Source of the DNA: Candidatus Electrothrix communis
GTDB lineage: Bacteria > Desulfobacterota > Desulfobulbia > Desulfobulbales > Desulfobulbaceae
Direction: 5' to 3'
NCBI GenBank assembly: GCA_030644725.1
Contig: CP130629.1
Coordinates: 4,727,501 to 4,791,500, forward strand
Length of the DNA: 64,000 bases
In this document: piece by piece, positions 14,320 through 38,338 of the stretch
Position numbering within the stretch: position 1 is the first letter of the stretch
Layout: the number at the start of each line of letters is the position of its first letter
Notes under the pieces: model-generated
What the model was told of the DNA's origin: nothing
What the model saw: the letters and a program-made list of their open reading frames with translations, nothing else
The model's database searches: none
Program-made: the position numbers and the translations under genes

Positions 14320-15645
14320 TCAGACAACTTTTCCTTCTTTTACATATTCGCGCAGGATGGCCGCTTCCAGTTGCTTTCCACTCAGCGTATTGTATTCTCC
14401 TGATAAAAATTCCAGGGCGCAGTAATGGGTCACATTAAGGATACCTGCTCCGGTGAGTTCAAAGCGGGCCGCGATCTGCTGCCAGTCAATATCGTCGGCG
14501 AGCATGATTTGCGCAGGAAAGGTTTTCTGCCAGAGCAGGCAGCGTTCTTCGGAGTTGGGTAGGGGGAAATGGATGATGGTTTGAAAGCGGCGGATAAAGG
14601 CATCGTCGATGTTGCTGCGTTGATTGGTGGCCAGGATGACTAACCCGTTGTAGCCCTCAATCCGCTGGAGCAAATAGGCAACCTCCTGATTGGCGTATTT
14701 GTCATGGGCATCGCGGATGTCAGTCCGTTTGCCGAACAAAGCGTCTGCCTCGTCAAAAAATAGAATCCAGTTTTTATGCTCTGCCTTGTCAAAAAGTCGG
14801 GAGAGGTTCTTCTCAGTCTCGCCGATGTACTTGGACACCACTCGCGACAGATCAATACGGAATACCTCCTTGTCCGTCTGTTTGCCTAGCAGGGTGGCGG
14901 TCAGGGTCTTGCCGGTACCGGGCGGGCCGTAGAACAGGGCGCGAAAGCCAGGCTTGATTTTCTTCCCCATACCCCAATCGTTCATCAGGGTTGCGTTGTG
15001 GCTGATCCAGGTTTCAATTTCGCGAATTTGGCGCAGGGTCTTGGGATTGAGGACCAAGTCGTCCCATTCCATCTTGGTTTCAATGTATTCTGCCGGAAAG
15101 TCCATGCTGAAACGTGGCCTGCTGACCGTGCCTAGAATGAGCAATTCCACCATTTCCGCATCAAGGATTAGACGACCGCTCATTGTCGGTTCACCATCGC
15201 GCACGGCTTCGAGGTCAAGAATGTGGTGCTGGGTAAACCAATGATCAGGGCCGAAAAGCTGCTGGACGGCAAGGCGTTGTTCCAAGTTATCTCCGGCAAG
15301 GATGAACAGGGCTGTCTCGCCGGTGGGCAGGATGCCTCGGTGGCTTTGGGCTTTCACGCCGCCGAATTCGGGGAAGTCACCGCCTTCAGGCAGGTGCTCT
15401 GCAATGATTTGGCTGAAGAAGTTCGGATGCAGGTGCGGAGCAAGGGCCAGCAGCAGCAGGGTGAATTCTTCAAAATCTGGATTGTAATGTTCAAGAAAGG
15501 CGGAGAGGCTTGATGGTTCTCCAGAGAGGTTCAGCGGACTGATCTCAAAGGTCTCACTTTGGCCGAGGTGCATACGCAGACGACTGCTGATGACGGTCTT
15601 CAGCCAGTCAAGGGCGAGTTGGAGGTTAGCTGCATTTGTAGTCAT
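14320..15645 (-). CDS. eCIS-associated AAA+ ATPase
   Basis: The 441-residue protein has an N-terminal helical domain (NLQLALDWLKTVISSRL, FTLLLLALAPHLHPNFF, GILPTGETALFILAGDNLE) and a C-terminal AAA+ domain. That domain has Walker A GPPGTGKT at residues 240-247, SKYIGETEKNLSRLFD, Walker B ILFFDEADALFGKR and an arginine-finger region AFIRRF. This N-terminal arrangement is typical of the ATPases encoded in contractile injection system loci of Bacteroidetes and others, where the protein is thought to help assemble or disassemble the particle. It is the last gene of a minus-strand trio, 45 bases after the lipoprotein gene. Confidence 0.85.
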   Translation of the reverse strand: MTTNAANLQLALDWLKTVISSRLRMHLGQSETFEISPLNLSGEPSSLSAFLEHYNPDFEEFTLLLLALAPHLHPNFFSQIIAEHLPEGGDFPEFGGVKAQSHRGILPTGETALFILAGDNLEQRLAVQQLFGPDHWFTQHHILDLEAVRDGEPTMSGRLILDAEMVELLILGTVSRPRFSMDFPAEYIETKMEWDDLVLNPKTLRQIREIETWISHNATLMNDWGMGKKIKPGFRALFYGPPGTGKTLTATLLGKQTDKEVFRIDLSRVVSKYIGETEKNLSRLFDKAEHKNWILFFDEADALFGKRTDIRDAHDKYANQEVAYLLQRIEGYNGLVILATNQRSNIDDAFIRRFQTIIHFPLPNSEERCLLWQKTFPAQIMLADDIDWQQIAARFELTGAGILNVTHYCALEFLSGEYNTLSGKQLEAAILREYVKEGKVV

Positions 15646-15690: not shown

Positions 15691-16098
15691 CTATTTACCA
15701 AGCTGGCTCGTTATTTTTTTTCGTGTGGCCTTGAGCCGTTCCGTGACATTCTCCTGAATATTTTCTGCAATTTTTTCATCCAGAAACCGGAGAGCGCGTT
15801 GATATTCGAGATAGCGGAAGTCCTTCTTCTGTTCCGGTTCGACAGGATATCTTTGTTGCACCTCAGTCACTGGAATATCCCGGTACACGGCTACCTTGAC
15901 AGGATAAACGGCAGCAGGGTCGGGATCACCGTGATCCTGCCATTGCCACCACTCCATCCCTATAACTTCTCGGGCAATGATTTGGGGGCCAAAATCGTTA
16001 TAGTTTAGCAGGGTAAGCTCTTGCTGCGAATGCACGGAGCAGGAGGTCAGCAATGTGAATAAAAGAATAAAGGTGAGTCTTGACATGATGTCCTTCAT
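15691..16098 (-). CDS. Small lipoprotein of unknown function
   Basis: The 135-residue product has a lipoprotein signal (LTFILLFTLLTSC, acylated Cys about 20). The mature part is charged, with EWWQWQDHGDPDPAAVYPVK and a basic helical C-terminus. Its start codon overlaps the stop of the upstream gene by four bases (ATGA), so the two are translationally coupled and probably work together. I do not recognise the family. By position it could be a periplasmic partner or an immunity-like protein for the upstream product, but this is inference only. Confidence 0.7.
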   Translation of the reverse strand: MKDIMSRLTFILLFTLLTSCSVHSQQELTLLNYNDFGPQIIAREVIGMEWWQWQDHGDPDPAAVYPVKVAVYRDIPVTEVQQRYPVEPEQKKDFRYLEYQRALRFLDEKIAENIQENVTERLKATRKKITSQLGK

Positions 16099-16841
16099 TT
16101 GAGTTTTGCCGATGCTGCTAGGTGCTCGGCTTGTTCAGGTGGAATAACGATTGCACCGCTCAACCACGGAAATATCCGCACCGGGGTGGCCTCGTAGAGC
16201 CCGTCTCCTATGGAATTCCAATGCACTTCATAGATCTTTCCTTTGGAGAATAACCAGGTATGCATACCGCCTCGCGATATACCGAAACCGAATTCGACCT
16301 GTTCCAGGCTGGCAATATCTGCTTCATTATGTTGGGCAACAGGTTTGTTTTTATTCAGTAGTTGGAAGCTCTCATGATTCTCCGGTGTGATGCAGTAGTT
16401 CTGAACTGCGTATTCCAAGGGGATATCATAATAGGTATGTTGTTTCAGGGCAACAATACTTGAGTATGTATGCTCTTCAGATCTCCTGACAGCATCGGCT
16501 GTGGCATCGCGGGGATGTACTGCATCCGGGTTGAGATAGATAGCTTTCCAGCCGTGTTTTTTGACCAGATATTTTGCCAGCCTTGTGCCGTGGGCCCCAA
16601 GCTGCCAGACCCGGCCTGCTGATTGATCGTTGCCCATTTCCCGAAAGGCGTGGCTGAGTACATTGAGGACATAGGTAATACAGTCTGTGGACTGGTAATT
16701 CTTATATTCCTCCGGCTCTGCCTTTTTGAGTTGGCTCCCTACTTCGTGGTCATGATGGTGAAACAGATCCATCATTTTTTCAAGGGCATAATCTGTGAAT
16801 ATTTTTATTACCTGTACCTGTACCTGTTCTTGTTGGCTCAT
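16095..16841 (-). CDS. Hypothetical protein with Cys/His arrangement of an amidase-like fold
   Basis: The 248-residue product has no signal peptide. Residues around STDCITYVLNVLSHAF give a cysteine at the start of a helix. Further on, GISRGGMHTWLFSKGKIYEVHW puts a histidine on a strand, and IFPWLSGAIVIPPEQ ends the domain. A Cys-helix plus His-strand order is what NlpC/P60 and related papain-like amidases show, but I cannot confirm homology. It overlaps the downstream lipoprotein by four bases and lies upstream of the eCIS ATPase on the same strand. A ribosome site AAGGAGG precedes the ATG closely. Confidence 0.6.
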   Translation of the reverse strand: MSQQEQVQVQVIKIFTDYALEKMMDLFHHHDHEVGSQLKKAEPEEYKNYQSTDCITYVLNVLSHAFREMGNDQSAGRVWQLGAHGTRLAKYLVKKHGWKAIYLNPDAVHPRDATADAVRRSEEHTYSSIVALKQHTYYDIPLEYAVQNYCITPENHESFQLLNKNKPVAQHNEADIASLEQVEFGFGISRGGMHTWLFSKGKIYEVHWNSIGDGLYEATPVRIFPWLSGAIVIPPEQAEHLAASAKLK

Positions 16842-19408: not shown

Positions 19409-19687
19409 TCAGGCAACTGCCAGCCGACATCCCAACGCCTTAATGACCTTGCTGACTGTGGAAAATCTTGGGTTCCCTTCTCCGGTAAGGGCCTTGTACA
19501 GGCTCTCCCGGTTGAGTCCGGATTTTCTCGCTACCTCGGTCATTCCCTGTTTTTTTGCCAGATAGCCCAAAGCGACAAGAAAGACTTTAGGGTCATCATC
19601 CATATAAGCGTTGTTCAAGTACTCGTTAACTTCTTCCCTTGTTTCCAGATAGTCGAACGGATTGTAGGGTTTCGTTGTCATTGTCAT
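19409..19687 (-). CDS. Antitoxin of a HigBA-like module
   Basis: The 92-residue protein is a helix-turn-helix antitoxin of the addiction-module type: PFDYLETREEVNEYLNNA, then GYLAKKQGMTEVARKSGLNR, ESLYKALTGEGNPRFSTV and KVIKALGCRL. In this family the antitoxin binds its RelE-like partner and represses the shared promoter. The order here is toxin then antitoxin with a four-base overlap, as usual. The toxin gene is cut short, so the antitoxin may now be an orphan. Confidence 0.85.
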   Translation of the reverse strand: MTMTTKPYNPFDYLETREEVNEYLNNAYMDDDPKVFLVALGYLAKKQGMTEVARKSGLNRESLYKALTGEGNPRFSTVSKVIKALGCRLAVA

Positions 19688-19875
19688 GATTCTTCCCCCA
19701 GTTGTTTAACCATTCCTTTTGCTTTCCTTATGTCTCTATCCTGCGTTGATTTGTTTCCGCCGCAGAGCAGGAGAATAATACGACCGTCCCGGATTACGTA
19801 ATACAGGCGGTAGCCCGGTCCGACGAATATGCGCATTTCAGAGAATTTTTCAACGACTGGGACACGATTTTTCAT
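19684..19875 (-). pseudogene. RelE/HigB-like toxin, N-terminally truncated
   Basis: Only the last part of the toxin remains: EMRIFVGPGYRLYYVIRDG, IILLLCGGNKSTQDRDIRKA and KGMVKQ. Family members are usually about 95-110 residues, while this frame gives 63 from its first ATG. The missing first 40 residues are replaced by an IS66 transposase fragment on the other strand that abuts at 19876. The toxin is therefore probably inactive. Confidence 0.75.
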
Positions 19876-20118
19876 GTGTTGTCGAATCCGACGTGGCCCC
19901 TGACCAATAATGAGGCGGAGCGAGCGCTACGTCATTGGGTTATTGCGCGCAAATTAAGCCACGGTACCCGTAATGGTCAAGGCAGTCGTGTGTTCGCCAT
20001 ACTTGCGAGCGTGATTGATACATGTAGGAAACGCGCCTGTCCGTGGAAATATCTCGCCGAGGTCATCACGGCTCGGCGCCAGGGTCTGAGTATACCTCCT
20101 CTTCCTCTTGTTGTGTAA
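19876..20118 (+). pseudogene. IS66-family transposase C-terminal remnant
   Basis: The frame encodes only the end of an IS66 TnpC protein: WPLTNNEAERALRHWVIARK, RNGQGSRVFAILASVIDTC and AEVITARRQGLSIPPLP. The catalytic glutamate region (NNEAERALR) is present, but everything upstream is missing. It marks a past insertion or deletion that also destroyed the toxin gene next to it. This IS66 sequence is of a different subtype from the copy at 36803. Confidence 0.85.
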
Positions 20119-20141
20119 AAAAATGAGAGGGATCTGAACGG

Positions 20142-23100
20142 TTACGCTTGAGCGATTTCGTTTCTGTCGGCAGCTTCGTTTTTTACATCCACGCCATCTC
20201 CTTTCTGCCTTTTCATGTTTATCCTCAGCCTCGGATATTCTTTCTTCCTGCCGTTAGCCTTTTTCTTCTCATCCAGATTCGACACCTGATCCACGAGCCG
20301 CGTTTTCGGTACGTTTTGCTGACAAACCGTTGCACCCTGCTGTATCGTATGTGTCAGCTCATGGGCCAAGAGATGTTTTCCGCTGGTGGTTGAAGGGTTG
20401 TATTGGCCTTGGGCAAAATAAATGTCATGGCCCTTGGTAAAGGCCCGCGCACCGATACGGCTGTTTATCTCGTTCGATTTGCTGTCATTATGGATGCGGA
20501 TGTTAGAAAAATCTCGACCGAATCTGCTTTCCATCTCGCTGCGGATGCCCCTCTCCATTGGCGTGCCGGTCTTCGACAGGTCAAGTTTGCTCTCTTCTGC
20601 TTCGGTTTTACCTTGTTGCTGACTCTGAAGCTTGGGATATGTTGTCTTCGGAGAAATTCGGTCAACCAGCGCAGGTGTACCTGTACCTTCACGACCACCG
20701 GAAATAACGTGGTCCGCCACGAGGTCTGCTTCCCTCTCGTGCGGATCTGACGAACTCTCATTCCATGCTTTTGACTGCGTGCCGGCCATCCGTTGGAGTT
20801 CCGCATAGCCTGCCGGGCGCTCCTGGGTTGTACCATGTGCACCTGCTCCGGACGGAATCCCAACAACATGAACAACTTTCACCTCCAGGTCACTTCTACT
20901 AACAGAGCTCAGCGACTTGACCTCCTCCTTACCGTCCTCCTGTACAGCAACATACTGATTGTCAACTGCGTTGGCATCTTGGTTCCGATTCCCTGGCAGA
21001 GGCCACAGGTTGTCTTGGTCTAATCCTCCGAAATTGCGGTCCTTCACATGGTCAGCTTCAAGGTACGAAGACCGATCAAGTGGAAGGAGTTCTCGCTCAC
21101 CACCGGATCGGCTTCTTTCCATGACCCGAGGAGCCGTCCAGCGATCTGCTCCAAGCCCTGTACGCCGTCTATATCCCGTTCTAATCCTCTCACCAACGTT
21201 CCTCTGTTCTTGGCGATTTCTGTCTTCAGGGCTAGCCCCTTGAGCTGCTTGATCCAGCTCCCTTTCAGTATCCCGCGCTTCTCGCAGATCCCCACTGCGC
21301 CGGATTTGCCAAGTCGCTCCCCAAGGTTCGTAGTTCTCAAAAGCAACATGCAGAAAATCTGATCCGTATGCTGTACCATTCGTGTTTACGCGCAGCGGTG
21401 CACGTTCACCGATCCGGTATGGTCGAGTGTTGGGCCGCTGATTCCTTGAGTTTGTACGTTCAATACTAACGGGTTGGAATGTTGGGTACTGCGACCTTCG
21501 TTTCAGCCAAGCAATAGGAATGGGATCGGCTTGCCCACCAGTGAAGGCCGCCGTATCATATGATCGTCCCTGTAGCATCCTCCGCGCTCCTTGCTGGGCA
21601 CGCAGGATGCTCCTTGCTCGCACAGTCACGTATTTGCCATCAAAAAACGGGTCATTGAGTAGTTTGGGCTCAAAACTCCATTCACCCGATATGCGATGGC
21701 GCTCGCCCCTCACAATCACTTCTTGGTTTTGCTGCGGGGAGGCAGCCCTGTTGGCGGACGACGAAAGAGGCCAGAGGTTGTCTCTCCCAGGACTACCACC
21801 TAGGTTTAGATCTCTCACATGGTCAATGTCCCAGGTTCGGTGTTGACCAAAATTGCGGGTCGTCTGAGTCGTTTCTCCGGGAACACGCACGCTGCCCACC
21901 GACTGAACGGTTCCTCCGTTGGGGTCGCTGACAGCTTGTGGCAGCTGCCTGTTGCCCTCACCGGTATTGGACTGCCCCACACGGTCTTCTCCTTCTTCCT
22001 GCCTCCAGATTGCCTCGATCTGCGGTACGGTGAAGAACTGAGCCCCGCTGGTTGTGCTTGCCCCTGTGCGTGTGGCCGTATCGCCCACACCAAGGAAGTA
22101 CTCCCCCCTGACTCTCTTGGAAAGTGCCGTCGGAGAAGTACGCCCGGCGTATAGAATATTGCGCGTGAACCCTTCGGTGGGGCTCTTGCCGAAGATTCGG
22201 GGGTAGTCGGTCTCTCTCTTATACCAGTTGATCAAAACAGGGTCACCTTGGTCACCCTTGGGATGGTGCATTTCAGCACCCTGTCCCAAGGCATCCTTGA
22301 TCCTCGGCAGTTGACGATCAACCACCTGATCGCATCGGCGTGCGGCGACTTCGTTGCCGTTTCTCCTATGCGTGGCCGCTCGCCTTACTGCCCGGCGCAG
22401 GGTACCGAAACTACGACGCACCATGAAAAGAGGTTCTGGGTCCAGATCCCTTCCCTGAAATTTACCTGTACGGGCAACGTCCTGAAGTGGCTCTTGATCG
22501 CTTCTCACCATGAGACGGGGGTTGCTGTCTGAGCCCTCAAAGTAGAGCGAGTGACTCCTCCCGTCGGCTGAACGGAATGGAACGCGTCGCCGGAACCAAC
22601 TGGCGACTCGCGCCATAGCACCACGTCCGGCGCGGACCAAACGCCGCGCCTGCCGCACAATCCAATCAAGCACCCGATCAATCGCCCGATCAACCCTGCG
22701 ATGCACCCGACGCAAGATATTCTGAATCGCACCGGACACATTGCCGAGACCGATAAGCCGGGCAAAAAAGCTGATGATGACCGGAAGCGTCCGGGCCATG
22801 CTCTGTTCTACATAGTTGGCCGCATCGTTGATCTTGCCTTCGGCGATATTGGCGATGGAATTGACAACCGCCTCCACAAGATCGACAATCTGTTCAATCC
22901 GTTCAACAAAGAACATGATTGTATTGTAAATCGCAAGGATCGCCTGAATCACGGCCCCGGCCGGATTGAGCATGGTGGCGATTCTGGTCACGGCGGCAGT
23001 CACGATGCGTGTGATAACAAAATTTTTAATACCGTCAATCACCGTATCCCGCAGGTTGCCGAGATGTTCGACCAGTCGCTCCCACAGCCCGGAAGGCCCT

Positions 23101-25517
23101 TCTGTCACCAGAATACGGACAACCTCGAAACCGGTTTCAAGAACCGATACAGCTCGTTCACCAAGACGCCGGACAAGTTTCGGGCGTATCCGCTGCCATG
23201 TAATCCCCAATATCTGCATCACCAAGGATAAAATCCCCCGGAAGTCGAAGCGTTCTGGCAGCTCAATACCCGCATTACCAAGCGTACCGGTCAGCCAACC
23301 GATCAACCCGGCCTGTAAATGCTGAAGGATTTTGCCGGAGAACTGATTAAAACCTTTTTTGACAGCATTGATCAGGTTGCCGACAAACTCAACCGGCCCC
23401 TTGATGATCTTGGTGAAGGTGCTACGTGCCCGCTTGAGAATAGCGAGAACCCGTGCCCCTGTGGGACCGAGTACGCCTTCAAAAATAAATTCAAGGATCT
23501 TCATACCGACTTCAACAGCGAAGTCAATAATCATGCGAACCGGTTCAGTGAAAATCTCGACGACACGTTCAAAGGCAGCAACAGGATTGGTAAGATCGTT
23601 GATCGTAAAGGTCTCCCAAACTTGAGTGAATGCATTCATCAACGCCTCACCGATCAGGCCCAACCGGTTGATCGCCTTCTCAAGCCAGGCAAAGGCCTTG
23701 TCAATGGCACCGGATTCCTGGAGATTACGGAACTTTTCCTGTCCTTCCGGAACAAAGCTAAGAAACCCTAGGATGAAATTTTCAGCTGTGCGCGGCACTG
23801 CTTCTCCGGTCAAGGGGTCGCTGCCGAGAATCACGCGCAGCAATGCGTAGCCGGGAATTCTGTTTGCGTATTCTTTCAGCAGGCCGAGGAGCCAGTCCTT
23901 AATCAGGCCCAGTACCTTCATCGCGACATTAACAACAAAGTTGAACAGCCGCGTGACCGGACCGGAAAAAATATTGTACAGGTTGGTGAATGTCTCAATG
24001 GGATGCAGCACTGCATTGATGTCAAGCAGATCCCATGCCTTGGAAAATGCCTGTGTAATCGTTTCAACCGATATGTTCAGCTTGTCAATCTCAGCGTCAA
24101 GCCAGTCAGATAGCTCCTGGAGTTTACCGGATTCGTTCAGCTTGTTAAGATACTCCTCGCCGGATTCTGTCAACATTAGGAAGGCGGAGACTATATTGTA
24201 CAGTGTCCGATCAACGGGTTCCTTGGTTACAGGGTCTTCGCCGAGAATTACGCAAAGAAGAGGGTATGCGCGTGTCTGGCCTTTGATGTAATCAACCAGC
24301 GGTGTCAGCATGGTTTCGCGTACCAGCTCGACAGTCTTACTGATAACACGGTCGGCGAACTCGTTCACATCATTCCAGATCGGGAGAAGATTTCGTTCCA
24401 GAACACGTCTGTTATATTCGAGTGCATCCAACCGGACTAATCTCGCTTCATCCCAAGCCCTCTCAAGGGCATTACGGAGACGCGACCATGTAAGATTGAG
24501 ATCAGAAATTTGTTCCCCAAGCCAAGCAAAAGCAGAATCTATTAAACCCTTTTCATTGAGCTTGTCGTACAACATTATCCCCAACGGACCTGTCAGCCCC
24601 ATGAAGCCGCGAAGAAAGTTCTGTGGTGTGGGTGGAACGTCGGCAAGAGTAAGAGGGTTGAAGCCGATGATCACAGTCATCAACGTCCAGCCCGGTATGT
24701 AATCAGCAAAATTAATAAGCCCTGCGAGGTCTGAAAGCCAGTCCGGTACAGCGGCACGCCCCGATGCAGATCGCTGAATTACCTGCGGGCTGCGCTGCAC
24801 CGAATGCCCCTGCTGGACGGTATGAGTCAGTTCATGCGCCAGCAGCTCTTTACCTTCGCTGGTTCCCGGCTGATACTGATCACGGCCAAAAAAGATATGA
24901 TTCTGGTGAGTGAAGGCCCGTGCGCTTAACTGATTACTCAGACCTGCGGATTCGGCATCGCTGTGGACGCGAACATTACTGAAATCGGCATTGAAACGCG
25001 GCTCCATAAAGCTGCGCACATCACCGGAAAGCGGCTGCCCGCCGGTGGTTTTGCTGCGAATGGCGGATTGTGTACCGGCATTGACTACCGGCGTGCCGTT
25101 GCCCTTTCGCTGAACTTCTTCGTCTTCCTGCTTTTGAATCGGTTCTTGCGGCAGCTCCGCCTTCTGGATTTCCTCTTTTTCCTGCTTCTGAAGCTGCTTT
25201 TCCGGCAGTTCCGCCTTCTGAATTTCCTCGTTCTCCTGCTTTTGCAGCTTCTCCTCTTCCTGTCGCTGAACTTTTTCTTCAGGTTCAGATGCTGCCGGGG
25301 TGGGCATCCGCATCACCTTGCCCGCCATTTTATCCGCTTCCTGCTCGAATTTATCCCCAGGCTTGTTCACCGCCATCTTCATCTGGACAGAGGGAACAGC
25401 AGCCCGGTTCACCGGTGCGAAAAAATTCCCCCCGCCCGCCTTGGCAAAAAAAGGCTGATTCGCAGCCTGGGCTGCCGTCCTTGAGGTCGTTGTGGATTTT
25501 TTCGCATTACTCTTCAT
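20142..25517 (-). CDS. Giant eCIS-associated protein with two DUF4157 domains and HNH-like modules
   Basis: About 1791 residues. Residues 1-60 form a leader (PFFAKAGGGNFFAP, EQEADKMAGKVM). Residues 65-140 are a Gln/Glu/Lys repeat linker. The first DUF4157 domain ends in HELTHTVQQ (HELTH at 228). Then come three helical repeats of about 140 residues with the pattern IPGY-LL-VILG-DPLTG near 270, 417 and 554, a long helical part, and an Arg-rich stretch. Two similar modules follow, each with DH-V-D-N-GG-D-NLWPL (histidines near 1233 and 1490), resembling HNH nuclease motifs. The C-terminus has a second full DUF4157 domain (HELTH at 1719). DUF4157 proteins are regular members of eCIS loci, probably as cargo or loading factors. 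It starts 36 bases after the tape-measure gene; a TTG at 25538 is an alternative start. Confidence 0.88.
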   Translation of the reverse strand: MKSNAKKSTTTSRTAAQAANQPFFAKAGGGNFFAPVNRAAVPSVQMKMAVNKPGDKFEQEADKMAGKVMRMPTPAASEPEEKVQRQEEEKLQKQENEEIQKAELPEKQLQKQEKEEIQKAELPQEPIQKQEDEEVQRKGNGTPVVNAGTQSAIRSKTTGGQPLSGDVRSFMEPRFNADFSNVRVHSDAESAGLSNQLSARAFTHQNHIFFGRDQYQPGTSEGKELLAHELTHTVQQGHSVQRSPQVIQRSASGRAAVPDWLSDLAGLINFADYIPGWTLMTVIIGFNPLTLADVPPTPQNFLRGFMGLTGPLGIMLYDKLNEKGLIDSAFAWLGEQISDLNLTWSRLRNALERAWDEARLVRLDALEYNRRVLERNLLPIWNDVNEFADRVISKTVELVRETMLTPLVDYIKGQTRAYPLLCVILGEDPVTKEPVDRTLYNIVSAFLMLTESGEEYLNKLNESGKLQELSDWLDAEIDKLNISVETITQAFSKAWDLLDINAVLHPIETFTNLYNIFSGPVTRLFNFVVNVAMKVLGLIKDWLLGLLKEYANRIPGYALLRVILGSDPLTGEAVPRTAENFILGFLSFVPEGQEKFRNLQESGAIDKAFAWLEKAINRLGLIGEALMNAFTQVWETFTINDLTNPVAAFERVVEIFTEPVRMIIDFAVEVGMKILEFIFEGVLGPTGARVLAILKRARSTFTKIIKGPVEFVGNLINAVKKGFNQFSGKILQHLQAGLIGWLTGTLGNAGIELPERFDFRGILSLVMQILGITWQRIRPKLVRRLGERAVSVLETGFEVVRILVTEGPSGLWERLVEHLGNLRDTVIDGIKNFVITRIVTAAVTRIATMLNPAGAVIQAILAIYNTIMFFVERIEQIVDLVEAVVNSIANIAEGKINDAANYVEQSMARTLPVIISFFARLIGLGNVSGAIQNILRRVHRRVDRAIDRVLDWIVRQARRLVRAGRGAMARVASWFRRRVPFRSADGRSHSLYFEGSDSNPRLMVRSDQEPLQDVARTGKFQGRDLDPEPLFMVRRSFGTLRRAVRRAATHRRNGNEVAARRCDQVVDRQLPRIKDALGQGAEMHHPKGDQGDPVLINWYKRETDYPRIFGKSPTEGFTRNILYAGRTSPTALSKRVRGEYFLGVGDTATRTGASTTSGAQFFTVPQIEAIWRQEEGEDRVGQSNTGEGNRQLPQAVSDPNGGTVQSVGSVRVPGETTQTTRNFGQHRTWDIDHVRDLNLGGSPGRDNLWPLSSSANRAASPQQNQEVIVRGERHRISGEWSFEPKLLNDPFFDGKYVTVRARSILRAQQGARRMLQGRSYDTAAFTGGQADPIPIAWLKRRSQYPTFQPVSIERTNSRNQRPNTRPYRIGERAPLRVNTNGTAYGSDFLHVAFENYEPWGATWQIRRSGDLREARDTERELDQAAQGASPEDRNRQEQRNVGERIRTGYRRRTGLGADRWTAPRVMERSRSGGERELLPLDRSSYLEADHVKDRNFGGLDQDNLWPLPGNRNQDANAVDNQYVAVQEDGKEEVKSLSSVSRSDLEVKVVHVVGIPSGAGAHGTTQERPAGYAELQRMAGTQSKAWNESSSDPHEREADLVADHVISGGREGTGTPALVDRISPKTTYPKLQSQQQGKTEAEESKLDLSKTGTPMERGIRSEMESRFGRDFSNIRIHNDSKSNEINSRIGARAFTKGHDIYFAQGQYNPSTTSGKHLLAHELTHTIQQGATVCQQNVPKTRLVDQVSNLDEKKKANGRKKEYPRLRINMKRQKGDGVDVKNEAADRNEIAQA

Positions 25518-25553
25518 GGCTTGCTCGGCACCCCGCAATTCATGTATTTGAAC

Positions 25554-27389
25554 CTATGTCCATTCCACCCATAACATCCGCTCCATCCACGGCAGCCTGA
25601 TCATAGAAATACCCCAGGGCAACTGCTCCAGCAGGATATCCCAGGTCTGCGGCTCGACTTGCAAAAGCAGATCCTCGCCGCGCAGGGAAATCTTGCCGGG
25701 CCGGACCAGAAAGGTACCGCGCAGGCCGTCTGGCGAGGTGTTACGCAGGGCCTCCCAATGCTCAATAACCGCCGTGAGCAGGGACGCTGCCTCCTCCAGC
25801 TCCTTGTCGGTCAGCTCCACATCCGCCTCCACCGGCATGTCCAAGGGGACATTGCAGAGGATCTTGGGCAGCATCAGCTCGTATTCCGGGGCCATGCCCT
25901 GGCCAGTGGCGAGAAAATGGAGCAGGCAGAGGGCACGTTCCGGTTGGAGGAGCTGTTCTTCCTCGGCGATACCCAAGGCACTGAAGAATTGGGGCAGGAA
26001 AGGATGGAGCAGCACCAGCCCGGCATTATTGATATAGATTCCTTTCCCAACAGTATCAGCCAAATCCTGTCCTGCGGACATCTGCTCGGAAGAAACGGCC
26101 GGAGAGGACGGAAGAGCCTCGGCAGTCCGTGCCTGAGCTGTCTCCTCCCTGTCCTGAACGAGCGGGACCTTATCTGTATCCGGGGCTGGTTCCTCTGTTG
26201 CTCTTTCCTCCACAGCTTGCCGGTGCTGTGCAGGCGATTGCCCGGAAGACGGAGGAGAGGCAGACAGCTGCACCGCTTCACCGGGTTCTTCCTGAGCAGG
26301 GCCATCCCTGTCCGGCATGATCAGGGTATTGTCTGTATCTGCGGGCGTTTTTTTTCTTGCCCTTTCTCCTGGAGCGGGCTGTTCCGACCGTGCAGGCGGA
26401 TGCCCGGAAGGCTCAGGAGGTTCGGAGGGCTGCAAGGATTTTCCGGGCCTTTCCTGAGCAGTGACGGGCGGTTCGGTCTCAGGCCGGGTACGGCTCTCCG
26501 TATCAGGGGCGTTGATATCGTCCTGCTTTCCTTCATTGCGGTGTTCCGGTTCTGCTGGCGAAAGAGAAGACCTGCTTTCCGCATTCGACGGCCAATGACG
26601 TGCCAGTGCCTCGGCGGCTGCCGTATATTCTACCGAGGCGGTCGCTAGAAGATCACGGATAATGGCTGCCGCCGTCACAGGCTGTCCGACCGCAACCTTG
26701 GCAAATGCACTCTCCCAGAGCAGCCGCTCAACCTGTCTGCGCTCTGCGGGCGGTATCTTGTCGCTGTCCAGCATCGCAAGTATTTCTTCCATTACCGTTG
26801 CCTCTGCCGGTGCAAGCCGGGCAAGGAGTGTTTTGAGCAGGGTTGGTGTGAACTGCTGAATCAGCCGTTTTCTCGCTGACGCTGAAGCCAGCACTTGTCG
26901 CACCTGCTCTGCGCTTTGGATGCCGCTGCTCTGTTCGGTCTCCTGCCAAGTCTCCAGAACAACCTGCTCCAAGCTGCGATCCTCAGGCAGGCGAAAGGAC
27001 CAAGGAAGTTGACCGGTTTCCAGGAAAAAGACAAAGGCTTCTGCCACGGAATGCCGGGTTGTCTTGTGCTGCACTTTGCCGGAACCATGCTTCCCGACCG
27101 CTGCCGTATCCGCAGGGATTTGCTCTTGCAGGGCCTTTTCCAAGGCCTGGGCCACTGATTCGGCCAGGTCATGCTCCAGGCGTTCAAGGGGGATGGCCCC
27201 GGCATCTATTTCCAGACGTTCAATGTACAGGCTCCCTTGCTCCGGGGCGTAGCGGTCTAATGTTCGCTCAAGGGCGGGCAGGAGCCAGTCTTGGCAGAGG
27301 GCGGGTAGCCTGCGCTGCAGGGCCAGCCCGTCGGATTCGCTGCCGTTCAGCTCGACGTGCAGGTATTGTTGGCGGATGGTATGGTGCAT
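25554..27389 (-). CDS. Contractile injection system tape-measure protein
   Basis: The 611-residue product matches the CIS tape-measure family at both ends. The N-terminus has IRQQYLHVELNG, LERTLDRYAPEQGSLYIERL and EIDAGAIPLERLEHDLAE. The C-terminus has IYINNAGLVLLHPFLPQFF, ALCLLHFLATGQ, LPKILCNVPLD and a WDILLEQLPWGISMIRLPWM ending. Between them lies a low-complexity Pro/Glu/Ser linker (about residues 260-420). In these particles the family is thought to set the tube length. It sits between the large baseplate-associated gene (stop two bases upstream) and the DUF4157 gene, the normal order for an eCIS tail cluster. Confidence 0.9.
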   Translation of the reverse strand: MHHTIRQQYLHVELNGSESDGLALQRRLPALCQDWLLPALERTLDRYAPEQGSLYIERLEIDAGAIPLERLEHDLAESVAQALEKALQEQIPADTAAVGKHGSGKVQHKTTRHSVAEAFVFFLETGQLPWSFRLPEDRSLEQVVLETWQETEQSSGIQSAEQVRQVLASASARKRLIQQFTPTLLKTLLARLAPAEATVMEEILAMLDSDKIPPAERRQVERLLWESAFAKVAVGQPVTAAAIIRDLLATASVEYTAAAEALARHWPSNAESRSSLSPAEPEHRNEGKQDDINAPDTESRTRPETEPPVTAQERPGKSLQPSEPPEPSGHPPARSEQPAPGERARKKTPADTDNTLIMPDRDGPAQEEPGEAVQLSASPPSSGQSPAQHRQAVEERATEEPAPDTDKVPLVQDREETAQARTAEALPSSPAVSSEQMSAGQDLADTVGKGIYINNAGLVLLHPFLPQFFSALGIAEEEQLLQPERALCLLHFLATGQGMAPEYELMLPKILCNVPLDMPVEADVELTDKELEEAASLLTAVIEHWEALRNTSPDGLRGTFLVRPGKISLRGEDLLLQVEPQTWDILLEQLPWGISMIRLPWMERMLWVEWT

Positions 27390-27391
27390 TT

Positions 27392-30272
27392 TTATATAGG
27401 AGGCTCTGTGATTGCTGACAGCTTCTTCCGCTCCAGATCAATCCAAACATTGGTACGGGCTTTTCTTGCCTGAATGTATAGGTAATTATTATCCAATTCT
27501 TGTGAACTCAACTGCTTGTCTAATTGTATTACCAGGGCCTTGGGTTTTTCTTCGGGTGCAACGACAAAATCGCCACCTATGTCTTTCCCGCCAATCCTCA
27601 ATCTTCCTATTCCTATATTTTCTGGATATTCTTCACTTTTCCATTTATGGAAATATGCAGGCTGACAGATTTCGTCGCCATCCTTTTGTAAACGGAAATG
27701 ATAAAAAACACCTGGTTGGCCGTTGGCAACCTGAAGGAAATGTGCTTCTCCGTCCTTACGCAATTTCACAAAAAGATCCCGATGATGATCAGGTTTCACC
27801 AGCAATACAACAGCGTTACTCAGTTGCACCTCGGAACGTATTTTTTCTCCGCCATCTTCTGTTAACAGACCTTTTTTATGTTTTTTTGCGGCGCGGAAAA
27901 TAATCAGACTGTCTTCTTTCAAGGAATCAATGGGCAACTCCAATTTCTGGCTGTGGCCTTGCACCTCATCGGCACCTGCTGGAGTTGGAATATAATTGAT
28001 TAAAATTCCCTCCTCTTCCCATATAGGCAACGGTTTTGGCTGGTTAACTTGTACATCAGGAAATTGTATGCCAGAAAAATCATGCACAGGTATCTTCGGC
28101 CTGCTACCATCCCATTCTTCAAAAACAAAATCGTTATAACGCAGTGGACGTTGAAAGGCTTGGTAGAAAACATTCTCCTGCGTCTCATTAAGAGTTATGA
28201 TCAGGTCGCTCTGATTAAATTCTATAATGGAAGAGGAGACAGCTAAATCGGTCCTGGCCCTGACCCGAAGCGGGAGTTTTGTCCTTAACCATTGAGAATC
28301 GCCATTGCTCTCTTGTTTAGCCTCTATATGGATATCTATGTCTTTGTCTATTGGATAACTCTCAATCTCAATGTTTTGCCCGCTTACTCCTGGTGTCTCA
28401 GGTTTCGAAATCGGTTGCGAAGTATTTTTTTCAGAAAAAAGACCGTATAATACGCCTGCTTGAGAGCCATTTATTTGGACAATCACTTTATGACCGGATT
28501 GTATCAGTACAGGTTCGTCGGTCTCAGAAAGTGGGGTTATGTTGCCGTGCGTATCAATTTTTTTGACAATTTTTACTGTGAGATTGAGATTTACCTCAAC
28601 CCTGACAATGGCTTCCTGATCCAGAAATACATATTTATTAGAATCATCTTTTTTCCACGCCTTTATCCTGTACGTCAGATGTGTTTCGGTTCCGGTAACA
28701 GAAGAGATTATCAGAGTTGTTTTGTCTCCCCTTCTTGACACAGGGTCGCCTACTGGTTTAAAATCGTTGGGTGTCTGGAATTGATAAAGTTGATATAATA
28801 CATCCTGCTGGCCGTTGGAAATATCAATGGATGCATTTTTGCCAAAGGCAACTGATGTCTCTGGTACAGACAGATCAGACAGCGGATACGTTCGTCCGAA
28901 ATCAAGTAGGTCGATAAGGCGGTCACGAGCGGCCCGCAGCTTCTGGTGATTCGTGCTTACATCATTACTCATAAACTCTCGCCAGCTTTTATAGGCTGTC
29001 TTGAAATTTTCCTGGTTCTTTTCATCCATCAGGAGGAAATTTACAATCAAATGCGCCGGTATTTCTTCCAGGATTGACTGTTGGAGATGTCTGGAATAAA
29101 TATCTTTAGATAAAACCACGCTGACCCGCAACGAATACGGATCACCCTGCGGTATATCAGGGATAAGTTCAAGAATAGCGGTGCGTTGTTGTTTATCCTT
29201 CTCAACAGGGCGCAATAGGATATGCTCTACCAGATAAAAGTATGCCTCATCGTCAAGACTCAGTTTCAAACGAATACGCCGCTCCAGTCCCGTACGATGG
29301 TCGGCATCTGCAGGTTTACAATAACTGACCGCCCGGTTTTTGCTGAGTTCAGCATAAAAACGCAAGTAATACTGTTTACGTTTAATTTGTTTTTTAGCAT
29401 CTTCCGGCTTCCGGGAAGGCGGATAATCCGTAACCTGTTCCCCAAAGCGGGCCAGCAGATGATCCAGAAAACGATTTTTTCGTTCCAACTCATCGGTCTC
29501 GGAACCGGTGAAAAGTTCTTTCAACCTGATACTACGTTTTTCTTTGTCGGCAATAGTCCAGAGGCCAAGGCCGTTTGATTTTTCTTTTTCGTCGTCCAGC
29601 CCCAATTCACTCTCATTCAATGTCTGAGTAAAATATGTTGCTGTATCAATTTGCCCTTCATCTTCATCTGGTTCATCGAGAAAAGAGAACAGCTGTCCTG
29701 CATTGGCCAGCTGAGTGAACTGGTTGACCAACAGCTGATCAAACAAGGTCAGATATGCCTTGAGCTGTTTCATCTGAGCTTTTCTCAGAGAGGTTGCGGA
29801 CGCAGGCAGCCCGCTGCTCCCTATACCGTAGCAATTTGGGAACTGGTGCTGAATAGAGCTGTAGGTGGCGATATGTCTGTCATGGCCTTCCGGAACAGGC
29901 AATTTGTCAACTCCCGGCAACGGTGGAGAATAAGAAGGCTTATTCAGTGCGGAAAGAGCTATTTCATGCCCATCTTGGATGAGTTTAATATCAGAATCTT
30001 TGTGCAGCCTAGGAAAAGAGCTGCTGTCCAATTTCAACAGCCATTCTTCTTCCCTTTCTTTCTTCTCATCATTTTCCGGTTTAATAAATGAAAGATTATG
30101 CACAGCCAGAACACCTTTGATGTCCATAAACAGACGGATCAGGTCTGATGTACGCAGTTCGGTTCTGCGGACGGCTTTTTCCAGCTCTTGCTCATCAAGA
30201 AAGCCCTTGGTCAATAAAGGGCCTTCAAATATTTCAGTAACGGATTTTCCGGCTTCCAAACGTTCCTGTAAG
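27392..30272 (-). pseudogene. Large eCIS baseplate-associated protein, 5' end lost
   Basis: About 960 codons remain. The frame runs straight into the DUF6399 transposon (copy 2) without a proper start; a TTG at 30259 is the first possible one. The N-terminal part has VTEIFEGPLLTKGFLDEQEL, RTSDLIRLFMDIKGVLAV, LERRIRLKLSLDDEAYFYLV and EHILLRPV, a pattern I associate with the Afp12-like large protein of eCIS loci. From about residue 460 there are four Ig-like repeats, each with an NGQ-VLY-type motif (near 478, 598, 691 and 845). The missing N-terminal part is not found on the far side of the transposon, so a deletion accompanied the insertion. Confidence 0.75.
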
Positions 30273-32055
30273 GGGCTACCAACTTAAGCCGGGACAGAAA
30301 GTAAATTCAAAGGGTTACTCTTGACATGTTTTCTCGGCTTACGAGGCAGGGGCAACTCGCCCACTTGGTGCAGCAACCATTCAAATAAGTCCGGTGGCTT
30401 TTCACCAAACAATCGTTGCGCTGCTGTACTGCCATCTGAGCGTTTTGTGAAATAATTATGCATAACGGTAAGCGATTTGAGACGATTTGAATTCAATCCT
30501 CTATTATTATGATGAATTTGTGACAAGAATCCGTTACGTCCTTCGACAGCAGAGGAAGCTCGATGAAATTTTCCCACCATTTCCTCGGCCCAATTTTGCC
30601 AAAAGAAAATCTCATCCTCGCTAAATGTTCCAGTCAAGGCATGCGCCTGAAAGACGACCAAAGCTTTTTCCCATACTTTTTCATATTCTTTTCGAAGGGT
30701 TGGGTTCTTAGTTTTTCTTGCCTGATTGTACCAATACACCGTAGGCAAAAGATGGTACATTGCCCAATCCAGCAGTTCCTTGCTCCTCTTTCCCAGCCCT
30801 ATCAGGTTAGTGAACACATACAACCACCAAAAATCAATTGATGGGACCAATTCTTTTATTTGATTCTTAAATTTCTTCATAACGCCGGTATTGTCGTTAA
30901 TACCTTGTTTGCAGGCCAGCGTTTCAATATTCTTGGCTTGCTCTCGCAGCTCTTTTGCAACGTTTGCAGAATCTTGCGGTTTATTGTCGTCCAGTTTGAA
31001 CGGATGCACCGTTTTTGATATTTTCCTTATTGTTCCACGGTAGTTATCCAGATCTTGCGTGGCTTTTTGGTCTTGAGCCCGTGCTTCTTCGACCTGCTTC
31101 ACTTTGGAGGCCACAATTTTTTTGTTTGCTCCTCTTTTTCAGCTTTTTCAAGACTTGACTCGCACTTATCCAACTGTCTTTTCGTCGTGCTCTTACGGCG
31201 GCCTAAAGTTGAGCCCATCCATTTACTGATATCGTGCAAGCCGTGAAAAATATCAGCGTTGTGATCACATTTAAGCCCGACCACAGCCAACTTTATTAAC
31301 GCTTTAGCTCGATCAGATACCATCAGCTGAACGTGTACACCTAACTCCTCAAGGCGTGGTTCCAACATTTTAAACCAGGTATCAAAACTTCTGTCATCAG
31401 CGACATCCTCTAAAATTAAATAACCCGATGACAGGTCCATAAATACCAGAATGAGTGCATTGCAGAAAAATGTTTCGTCCGCCGCACCGATCACCTCTTT
31501 GAATACATCTTTATAATTTTGTTCAACTTCTTTTGAAACCTGATAATTGCATCCTGAAGCTGAGAGAGTCTGGTTCGTATAGGCGTGGGTGATACCCCGA
31601 TATGCGTGTCGAGTCGAAGCACCTTGAAATATTCGGAAAGGGTGTCCGCTCCTATTCCATGTTGCACACCGAATATCAACAAGGTGGCAAAAAATGCCTG
31701 CGAATCCACTCATACCCCTCTTCATGTTCCCACAAAACAGATTCGGGATAGATATTTCTTCTTTGAATTCCTTTAACTTGTCGAAACGCACTACTTTTGC
31801 TTGTATTCGCTTCTTTTGCCAGTTGTTCGTAGGTAAGCTTGTCTGACTTCCCCAGAGCCGCAAAAACTCTGCCACCGATAGATCGTATTTTTTCCGTTAA
31901 TGCTTTCATAACGGAAATATGCTATTTTTTTACGAGCAGTTAAAGTATTTTTTCAATAAACTTATTTTTCATAGACTTCTGGCAATCAAAAACGATATTT
32001 CAGGTTATGATTTTTTGGGACGAGGTTCATTTTGTCCCGGCTTAAGTTGGTACCC
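30273..32055. mobile_element. DUF6399-transposase element, copy 2
   Basis: The 1783-bp element has the same inverted ends as copy 1 (GGGCTACC left, GGTACCC right). It is nearly identical to it apart from three single-base losses in A/T runs and lacks the ISKra4-like insertion. No direct repeat flanks it. It truncates the eCIS gene on its left. Confidence 0.88.
30284..31909 (-). pseudogene. DUF6399-type transposase, copy 2, three frameshifts
   Basis: The protein is the same as in copy 1, but three single-base losses break the frame: in a T run near 31136 (5 instead of 6 T), near 31531 (4 instead of 5 T), and in an A run near 31689 (6 instead of 7 A). The length from start to stop is exactly three bases less than the copy 1 equivalent. 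The pieces are MKALTEKIRS... to YEWIRRHF, VEQNYKDVFKEVIGAADETF to LEKAEK, and SKVKQVEEARAQDQK to the end. Confidence 0.85.
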
Positions 32056-36866: not shown

Positions 36867-38338
36867 ATGAATTTTAGTATCCCCGAAGAGAAAGAAGTCC
36901 GTACGGCCTTTGCGGAAGGTGAAGAGGCAATTATTGCCCTGTTCGGCAGTATAACCGCGCAGGTTAAAGAACTCGCCGCTCAGTTGGAAAAACAGGCCGG
37001 AGTATTGAAGGATTTACAGGCCCGGCTGTCGAAAAACAGCCGCAACAGCGGTAAACCGCCTTCAAGCGACGGATACGGTAAACAGAACAAGACGGAAAGC
37101 CTGAGAAAGTCTGGTCAAAAGTCGAACGGCGGGCAGCCGGGTCATGAAGGGCGGACTCTTAAGCGGTCGGAAAACCCAGATCATACGGAAACGTATAAAC
37201 CCGACACATGTGACAACTGCCAGACATCGCTTGAGGACGTCGCCGCCGTCGGAGAGGAAGAACGACAGGTTTATGATATTCCGGCGATACGAATCGAAGT
37301 CACCTCGCATCGTGCGGAAATCATAATTTGTCCCGAATGCGGCATGGAAAATACGGGAAAATTCCCGGAAAGTGTGGGACGGGGCGTTCGATACGGCAGA
37401 GGCGTGAAGACATGGGCCACGTATTTCGGGAATCAGCATCATATTCCGCTTGAACGCACTGCACAGATTTTTGAAGATCTGATCGGGCACGGAATTTCGG
37501 AGGGTTCGCTGCTGAAGGCATCTGAAGAACTTTCCGAGTGCGTCCGGCCCTCGACCGAGGCGACAGCGGAGCTTCTGCGTAATGCCGAGGTTCTGAAAGT
37601 GGACGAAACCGGACTGCGGGTCAAAGGAAAACTCCATTGGCTGCATGTAGCTTCGTCGGACCTCCTCACTCATTATAACGTGCATGAAAAGCGGGGAAAA
37701 GAAGCGATGGATGCAGCCGGAATCCTCAGTGAATTCGAAGGAAGGATGCTGCATGATCACTGGAAATCGTACTTCGGATATAAAAATTGCCGTCATGGGC
37801 TGTGCAACGCGCACCATCTTCGCGAGTTTAAATTCATAGGCAAACAGTATGAACAGGCATGGGCTGGAGACATGGCCGACTTACTGCTTGAGATAAAAGA
37901 GGAGGTCGAAAAACTGAAGCCGGACCGGGATCGTTTCGGGCCGGAACAGATCGAAGGTTTTGAACGGCGATACGATGAAATCATTTGTCGGGGCTTCGCG
38001 GACAATCCCTTCACGCCTCCAAAAGAAAAAAGAAGGGACGACTGAAAAGACCGCCGCCGCTCAATCTGCTGATACGGCTCCGGGATTACAAGTCGGAGAC
38101 TCTCGCCTTTATGTACGATTTTCGGGTTCCGTTCGACAATAATGCGGCGGAAAGGGATGTGCGTATGATGAAGGTCAAACAGAAGGTTTCGGGTTGTTTC
38201 CGAACTGTTGAAGGTGCGGAACGGTTCGCTTCTATCCGGGGATATATCTCCACGGCTCGTAAAAATTCAAAAAACATTTTCGAGGCGATTAAAGACGCCT
38301 TCAACGGCGATCCTTTTATTCCCGATGTCGCAGTATAA
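36867..38338 (+). pseudogene. IS66 transposase (TnpC type), one frameshift
   Basis: The first frame (36867-38045) has LSKNSRNSGKPPSSDG, GGQPGHEGRTLKRSENP, a zinc-finger-like CDNC...CPEC pair, EVLKVDETGLRVKGKLHWLH and HGLCNAHHLREFKFIGKQ. After PFTPPKEK the frame breaks in an A-rich run near 38020-38035 and continues in the next frame to 38338, with [39 protein letters not shown] and the ending. The DDE residues are therefore split over two frames. Either the gene is dead or it needs ribosomal frameshifting at that run. Confidence 0.88.

Follow-up and report, generated by a model that had tools for sequence, protein, structure and literature searches.

A probable truncated and leader-swapped copy of a tandem eCIS cargo protein in Candidatus Electrothrix communis

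Background

What does it mean when a single protein carries a DUF4157 domain close to each of its ends? This domain marks eCIS cargo proteins with a toxin at the C-terminus (PMC8213781, PMC11297309), and loading, chaperoning and proteolytic release have all been proposed as its role (PMC8213781, PMC11297309, PMC3482391). The tube of AlgoCIS is filled by two DUF4157 cargo proteins, one of which inhibits growth without need of its metalloprotease motifs (PMC8894135). For S. lividans, a DUF4157 protein has been described whose binding partners are the spike complex and a tape-measure-like effector (PMC13277306), and Tme of Streptomyces davawensis unites DUF4157, tape-measure-like parts and a DNA-degrading endonuclease (PMC11126660). 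Proteins in which one of two copies lies between two warheads make the loading tag, the chaperone and the releasing protease separable in one molecule.

The gene presented here belongs to “Candidatus Electrothrix communis” and lies in a window of 64,000 nucleotides, the whole stretch of DNA that was analysed. A preliminary description had proposed for its product either a nuclease cargo with a loading domain at both ends or a head-to-tail fusion of two cargo genes.

Results and discussion

Organization of the cargo gene

The frame encodes 1791 aa when counted from the ATG at 25517, or 1798 from the TTG at 25538, and contains no internal stop codon. Only eCIS_core (PF13699) exceeds its Pfam cut-off in this protein, and it matches twice (whole-protein E 8.6e-63, 208.9 bits against a cut-off of 22), the HELTH motif being intact in both domains. 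The parts of the gene are the following.

20142..25517, minus strand: eCIS cargo gene, 1791 aa, probably a 3'-truncated tandem cargo (open frame, Pfam, collinear with a 3345-aa protein of genome G625)
25107..25517, minus strand: N-terminal leader, residues 1-137, with EQEADKMA at 58-65 (similar leaders in genomes G003 and G004)
24804..25034, minus strand: first eCIS_core/DUF4157, residues 162-238, HELTH at 228 (Pfam, tree)
22593..24752, minus strand: helical region, residues 256-975, with three repeats of about 145 aa and a tape-measure-like stretch (alignment, PHROG, G625)
21588..22244, minus strand: module M1, residues 1092-1310, DH at 1232-1233, probable His-Me-finger nuclease (motif)
20859..21530, minus strand: module M2, residues 1330-1553, DH at 1489-1490, probable His-Me-finger nuclease (motif)
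20778..20861, minus strand: unit junction, residues 1553-1580 (22 of 28 residues identical to G625)
20553..20858, minus strand: second leader-like segment, residues 1554-1655, with EREADLVA (EAD motif, G625 alignment)
20331..20561, minus strand: second eCIS_core/DUF4157, residues 1653-1729, HELTH at 1719 (Pfam, tree)
20142..20330, minus strand: tail, residues 1730-1791, with the stop codon (insertion-sequence bases from the last base of codon 1791 onward)

The internal likenesses were assessed against shuffled sequences. The two DUF4157 regions align with a score of 238 (shuffle maximum 68), adjacent helical repeats with scores of 124 and 239 (shuffle maxima 61 and 48), and M1 with M2 at 112 (shuffle maximum 61), or at 91 with tighter borders, a score reached by none of 1000 shuffles. 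The anatomy given in the preliminary description is borne out for the single frame with two DUF4157 domains, the three helical repeats, the two alike DH..GG..NLWPL modules, the fresh leader-like segment ahead of the second domain and the positions of His1233 and His1490.

With E 1e-3 as the limit, the helical region of the window protein matches nine PHROG families, every one a tape-measure family (best 8e-10), and the G625 protein matches five tape-measure families (best 2.7e-19). At the same threshold of 1e-3, no PHROG match was obtained for the G004 and G332 cargo proteins, which have similar helical regions, nor for the CIS_TMP protein of the window, and the tape-measure matches could be inflated by helical composition. 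Only three hydrophobic stretches over 1.5 are present in the window protein.

A stop codon supplied by an insertion sequence

The 3' end of the gene runs into the remnant of an insertion sequence (IS).

19839..20145, plus strand: insertion-sequence remnant, last 309 bp of a 1731-bp element (end defined by copies in other genomes)

The remnant contains a transposase fragment of 80 aa (19876-20118, plus strand). Six further copies of the element, from the same-genus genomes G001, G005 and G007, all terminate in ...CTGAACGGTTAC, and their flanks diverge immediately past GGTTAC, which defines the end of the element. Over the 50 bases beyond this end, the window shares 18-34% identity with the six copies; within the end, ungapped identity is 64-92%, the lower values being due to a length difference in the A run, and a gapped alignment gives about 93% identity to the element from 19839 to 20145. 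The full copy of 1731 bp starts with GTAACCGTTCA, the reverse complement of its own end, so that its terminal repeats match. Both the stop codon of the cargo gene (TAA, 20144-20142) and the last base of the preceding codon (1791) are bases of the element. As the stop lies within the terminal repeat, the frame was once longer, and the second DUF4157 domain is terminal only because the element supplies the stop. The end of the second unit has been cut off by a mobile element, and the terminal DUF4157 is not an evolved design. In genome scans, “DUF4157 at both ends” is a layout that an insertion sequence can produce.

The missing left part of the element was not found elsewhere in this genome, in a search run without a positive control. 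The transposase gene of the window at 36867-38045 was considered as the other half of the remnant and rejected: there is no DNA match, and the proteins share 26% identity over 123 residues. In view of this weak similarity (26%, E 1.6e-6) to a protein assigned to the IS66 transposase family (PF03050), we tentatively take the remnant to be a member of the IS66 family. The lost 3' part of the cargo gene was likewise not found in this genome, so that its content can be deduced only from one relative, that of G625.

At 19409-19875 on the minus strand, an addiction-module antidote (PF21716) is encoded together with a preceding frame of 63 aa; the start of this frame extends into the remnant, and it is probably what is left of a truncated toxin gene.

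A longer collinear relative

G625, a genome of the same order, encodes a collinear relative of 3345 aa (residues 108-1736 against 209-1762, 57% identity, E 0). Its parts succeed each other as in the window: DUF4157, helical region, M1, M2, leader-like segment and DUF4157. Past the second DUF4157 its chain runs on for about 1580 residues, through another tape-measure-like helical region (33% identical to window residues 495-961) to and past a DNA/RNA non-specific endonuclease (Endonuclea_NS_2, 41.2 bits, Pfam cut-off 27). Identity between the two proteins amounts to 79% in the helical region, 38% in M1, 43% in M2 and 22 of 28 residues in the junction (1553-1580), and the tail behind the second DUF4157 aligns poorly (23%). 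The G625 gene comes after genes for CIS_TMP, an AAA ATPase and a DUF4157-calpain protein. Against G625, synonymous differences (pS) are far more frequent than replacement differences (pN), with 0.70 and 0.13 in the helices and 0.72 and 0.31 in unit 2, synonymous sites being saturated in M1, M2 and the tail.

In G625, each of the two DUF4157 domains has its own linker and warhead behind it; in the window this holds for the first domain only, because unit 2 is cut there after its DUF4157. The G625 form is a tandem cargo, in which two entire units, each built of leader, DUF4157, helical linker and warhead, follow each other head to tail. Since a longer collinear relative exists, this tandem is an old shared architecture, and the fusion of two cargo units proposed in the preliminary description gains support. 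The same comparison makes an assembly artefact joining two genes barely conceivable: the genome is a single contig, the join is in frame, and both the part order and the conserved junction recur in G625. The pentapeptide GAHGT (window 20829-20843, minus strand) is common to the unit junctions of the two tandem proteins; it occurs again near the C-terminus of the G625 protein (L125) and within an unrelated 248-aa protein, so that chance is a possible explanation.

The frequency of such proteins was estimated by a survey of eCIS_core that covered 395 genomes of the phylum, of which 19 gave matches, and 257 of the class, of which 34 did; G000 and G310, present in both lists, were counted once. 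Two-domain frames were paired from coordinates and frame lengths and then checked in translations. Two domains are carried by four frames (the window gene and those of G264, G506 and G625) among 77 open frames with 81 matches, a total in which one probably frameshifted gene counts as two frames. That gene is a further DUF4157 gene of this genome (G000:C1:1000311-1000540), whose single domain seems to extend over two frames. Two more single-domain frames, both in G451, came from 29 additional genomes belonging to the same order as G264. The second DUF4157 is internal in all three other double-domain proteins. In G264, it is followed by Ntox14 (E 1.3e-111), and in G264 and G506 an AAA-type ATPase, judged by eye from the translations, is encoded directly upstream. 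The G506 protein (L124 3749-9325, 1858 aa) also has a HELGH stretch between its two domains, with a weak match to Peptidase_Mx under the cut-off of that family, and behind the second domain a portion to which no family could be assigned.

A chimeric leader

The beginning of the window protein has other affinities than its body. Its leader is 88% identical to a cargo leader of G003 and 76% (over residues 3-138) to one of G004, both of the same genus; residues 1-240 match these two genomes, and from about residue 280 onward the best match is G625. At the DNA level, the leader and DUF4157 of the window and G003 share 91% identity over 401 bases and 86% over 436. The position of the cargo gene is shared with G003, where it also adjoins this tape measure gene, and the bodies of the G003 and G004 cargo proteins are other than that of the window protein, or distant from it. 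In a DUF4157 tree, the first domain clusters with G003, G004 and G332 (support 99/99) and the second falls outside, although resolution is poor in the deeper part, where 16 of the 35 inner branches had to be drawn open; the two are not sisters, and the duplication of a single DUF4157 within the gene was rejected.

From these comparisons, the window copy is a chimera, with a same-genus leader from residue 1 to about 245, a G625-like remainder, and a switch near residues 245-280. An exchange of bodies behind a constant leader has been described for polymorphic toxins (PMC3482391, section 13), and the leader pattern seen here fits such an exchange. It is a natural case of an imported cargo body placed behind a resident loading leader.

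Two probable nuclease modules

Five modules of the DH..GG..NLWPL type were compared, two from the window, two from G625 and one from the C-terminus of a single-domain cargo of G332. All five share W-K, Y-P, D-H-V, G-G, N-x-W-P-L and N, the last four being invariant. M1, M2 and the G332 module are related (none of 1000 shuffles reached the score in each of the three pairs). They agree with the His-Me-finger/HNH pattern, in which a conserved His follows an acidic residue and an Asn lies downstream. When aligned with the Endonuclea_NS_2 motif of G625, all five fall into a single register. The scores of the G332 module and of G625 M1 against this endonuclease exceed all 1000 shuffles; for window M2, G625 M2 and window M1, the score is attained in 21, 23 and 90 of 1000 shuffles, respectively.

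More distant comparisons gave lower scores. Against the G004 endonuclease, the module scores are reached by 39 to 539 of 1000 shuffles and the register is kept in some modules only. Pfam returned no match for M1 and M2 at E 1, and a weak Endonuclea_NS_2 match (E 0.11) for the G332 module. The module profile falls in the same register on the G004 toxin (E 0.13, not significant) and otherwise reaches the G003 toxin at E 0.15 and the end of the tape measure at E 0.5; pairwise shuffle tests of M1, M2 and the G332 module against the G004 and G003 toxins were not significant. A two-row module profile run over 297 genomes recovered G332 (E 3e-6) in addition to the window gene, and, as a weak match, a sequence with stops in G222 (E 7e-4). 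Relatives of the modules were found neither in plasmids (M1, M2, G332 and G625 modules as queries) nor in phages (M1 as query), and none was confirmed in viral contigs.

On this motif evidence, M1 and M2 are probably His-Me-finger (HNH-superfamily) nucleases, in which His1233 and His1490 would presumably be catalytic, as general knowledge of the superfamily leads us to assume. The nuclease proposed earlier for this region is plausible, the motif register being common to the five modules. As to a classical HNH fold, a PDB profile search with three module rows gave the HNH of ZRANB3 at a non-significant E of 0.096 and a search with five rows gave no nuclease structure. The cargo of G004 with a leader similar to that of the window (L055 803-4588) itself ends in Endonuclea_NS_2 (35.5 bits, cut-off 27).

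Neighbourhood of the gene

The cargo gene lies beside eCIS genes, with a CIS_TMP gene directly upstream and an AAA ATPase gene further on.

14320..15645, minus strand: AAA ATPase, probable eCIS ATPase (position; a 441-aa counterpart in G332 recognized by eye)
25554..27389, minus strand: CIS tape measure protein (CIS_TMP), 611 aa (Pfam E 1.6e-128)
27392..30259, minus strand: 955-aa operon protein, start missing (against a 1342-aa G003 protein)
30284..31875, minus strand: DUF6399 frame and weak integrase-core (rve) frame, probable mobile-element genes (rve E 0.022, under the cut-off)

The 955-aa protein aligns to residues 299-1261 of the G003 protein, so that about 298 residues are missing from its start. 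Sheath genes gave three matches in the genome, two near 1.0 Mb (over the cut-off) and one near 3.1 Mb (below it), none of them near the cargo locus, and a second CIS_TMP gene is present near 3.1 Mb. Defence-system models had no match, and no RNA family was found between 14000 and 32000.

A 248-aa protein without a Pfam family shows, by eye, a papain-like Cys and His motif, and its gene overlaps a small lipoprotein-like gene by four bases (15691-16098 / 16095-16841, minus strand). The pair is also found near the G003 cargo (L054 657-1861) and resembles an effector with a cognate immunity protein.

Weighing the explanations

We consider the frame to be, with a probability of about 0.8, a truncated and leader-swapped copy of a tandem eCIS cargo protein. 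Two other readings start from the terminal position of the second DUF4157. This domain could itself be the warhead, a peptidase toxin, as proposed for C-terminal copies (PMC3482391, section 13), and it is indeed last in the frame with an intact HELTH; yet its place at the extreme C-terminus is not native, the stop being made by the insertion sequence and the G625 relative continuing to and beyond its endonuclease, and its upstream EAD motif and leader-like segment resemble many cargo starts. The peptidase toxin is therefore improbable. Still less credit can be given to an evolved two-ended loading, in which the DUF4157 domains would dock both ends of one nuclease cargo: each copy does have an EAD motif upstream, but the insertion sequence caused the terminal position and the three other double-domain proteins keep their second domain internal, so that this part of the preliminary description is abandoned.

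The possibility that gene and operon are dead remains, whose layout has no present function, is a serious one, only somewhat short of an even chance. It draws on the IS-made stop, on the 955-aa neighbour that has lost its start and adjoins probable mobile-element frames, and on the lack of any sheath match of the genome nearby, and the locus may be decaying. Against it, 1791 codons are open, with the leader, both HELTH and both DH motifs present, and the systems represented by the sheath matches near 1.0 Mb and 3.1 Mb and by the second CIS_TMP near 3.1 Mb could serve the cargo. The excess of pS over pN also speaks against decay, yet it mostly reflects the time before the insertion.

Comparison with known proteins

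The truncated tandem cargo shares DUF4157, a long linker, a C-terminal toxin and the vicinity of eCIS genes with the eCIS-associated toxins bearing an N-terminal DUF4157, as presented in PMC8213781 and PMC11297309; it differs in having two such units per chain, and in the warhead of unit 1, which consists of two similar modules. Tme is described in PMC11126660 with DUF4157, a tape-measure-like region and, at the C-terminus, an endonuclease region akin to DNA entry endonucleases; this plan recurs in unit 2 of G625 and perhaps, up to M2, in the window protein, but Tme is described with one DUF4157, whereas the window protein has two, together with DH..GG..NLWPL warhead modules.

The preliminary description knew of no protein with this layout. 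In 2012, however, a second PVC-metallopeptidase (DUF4157) at extreme C-termini was already reported (PMC3482391, section 13). Those proteins resemble the window protein in having DUF4157 at N- and C-terminal positions, whereas here the terminal position results from truncation by the insertion sequence and the second domain has its own leader-like segment. Polytoxins, which bear several toxin domains and are treated in the same source, are alike in having more than one warhead per chain; here the delivery domain is repeated as well. What appears to be new is the repetition of whole cargo units, of which no description was found in the text of the open-licence papers searched, so that an earlier description is possible. 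No open-licence paper was found that treats cable bacteria together with a contractile injection system.

A possible mechanism

Unit 1 of the tandem cargo comprises the leader, DUF4157, tape-measure-like helices and the two probable nuclease modules, and unit 2, in the longer form, the leader-like segment, DUF4157, coiled and tape-measure-like helices and the DNA/RNA non-specific endonuclease. In the window copy, a leader and DUF4157 native to the resident system take the place of those of an imported body, with the switch near residues 245-280, and the insertion sequence later removed unit 2 past its DUF4157. Assisted by the AAA ATPase, the leader and DUF4157 may place the chain in the injector tube; the helical region could help in crossing the target membrane once contraction occurs, and M1 and M2 would then cut nucleic acid. 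Where the chain is longer, the second DUF4157, which precedes the next warhead, might serve serial loading or the proteolytic freeing of the next unit, and a copy located between two warheads is the feature that helps to separate the rival ideas on the role of the domain.

We tentatively suggest, as a view that is more doubtful than not, that tandem cargo represents a distinct use of eCIS, in which DUF4157-bearing units joined in one chain would allow a single loading to bring serial warheads, the second DUF4157 and the conserved junction would form a release point, and the leader and DUF4157 would act as an exchangeable loading module for an imported multi-warhead body.

Of 38 DUF4157 regions, 16 have a motif of the type E-x-EAD-xx-A, defined by ourselves, upstream of the core and 11 have it downstream, one region having it in both positions and one further region not being resolved. 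The motif might give a third zinc ligand, and its placement is as if the domain were circularly permuted.
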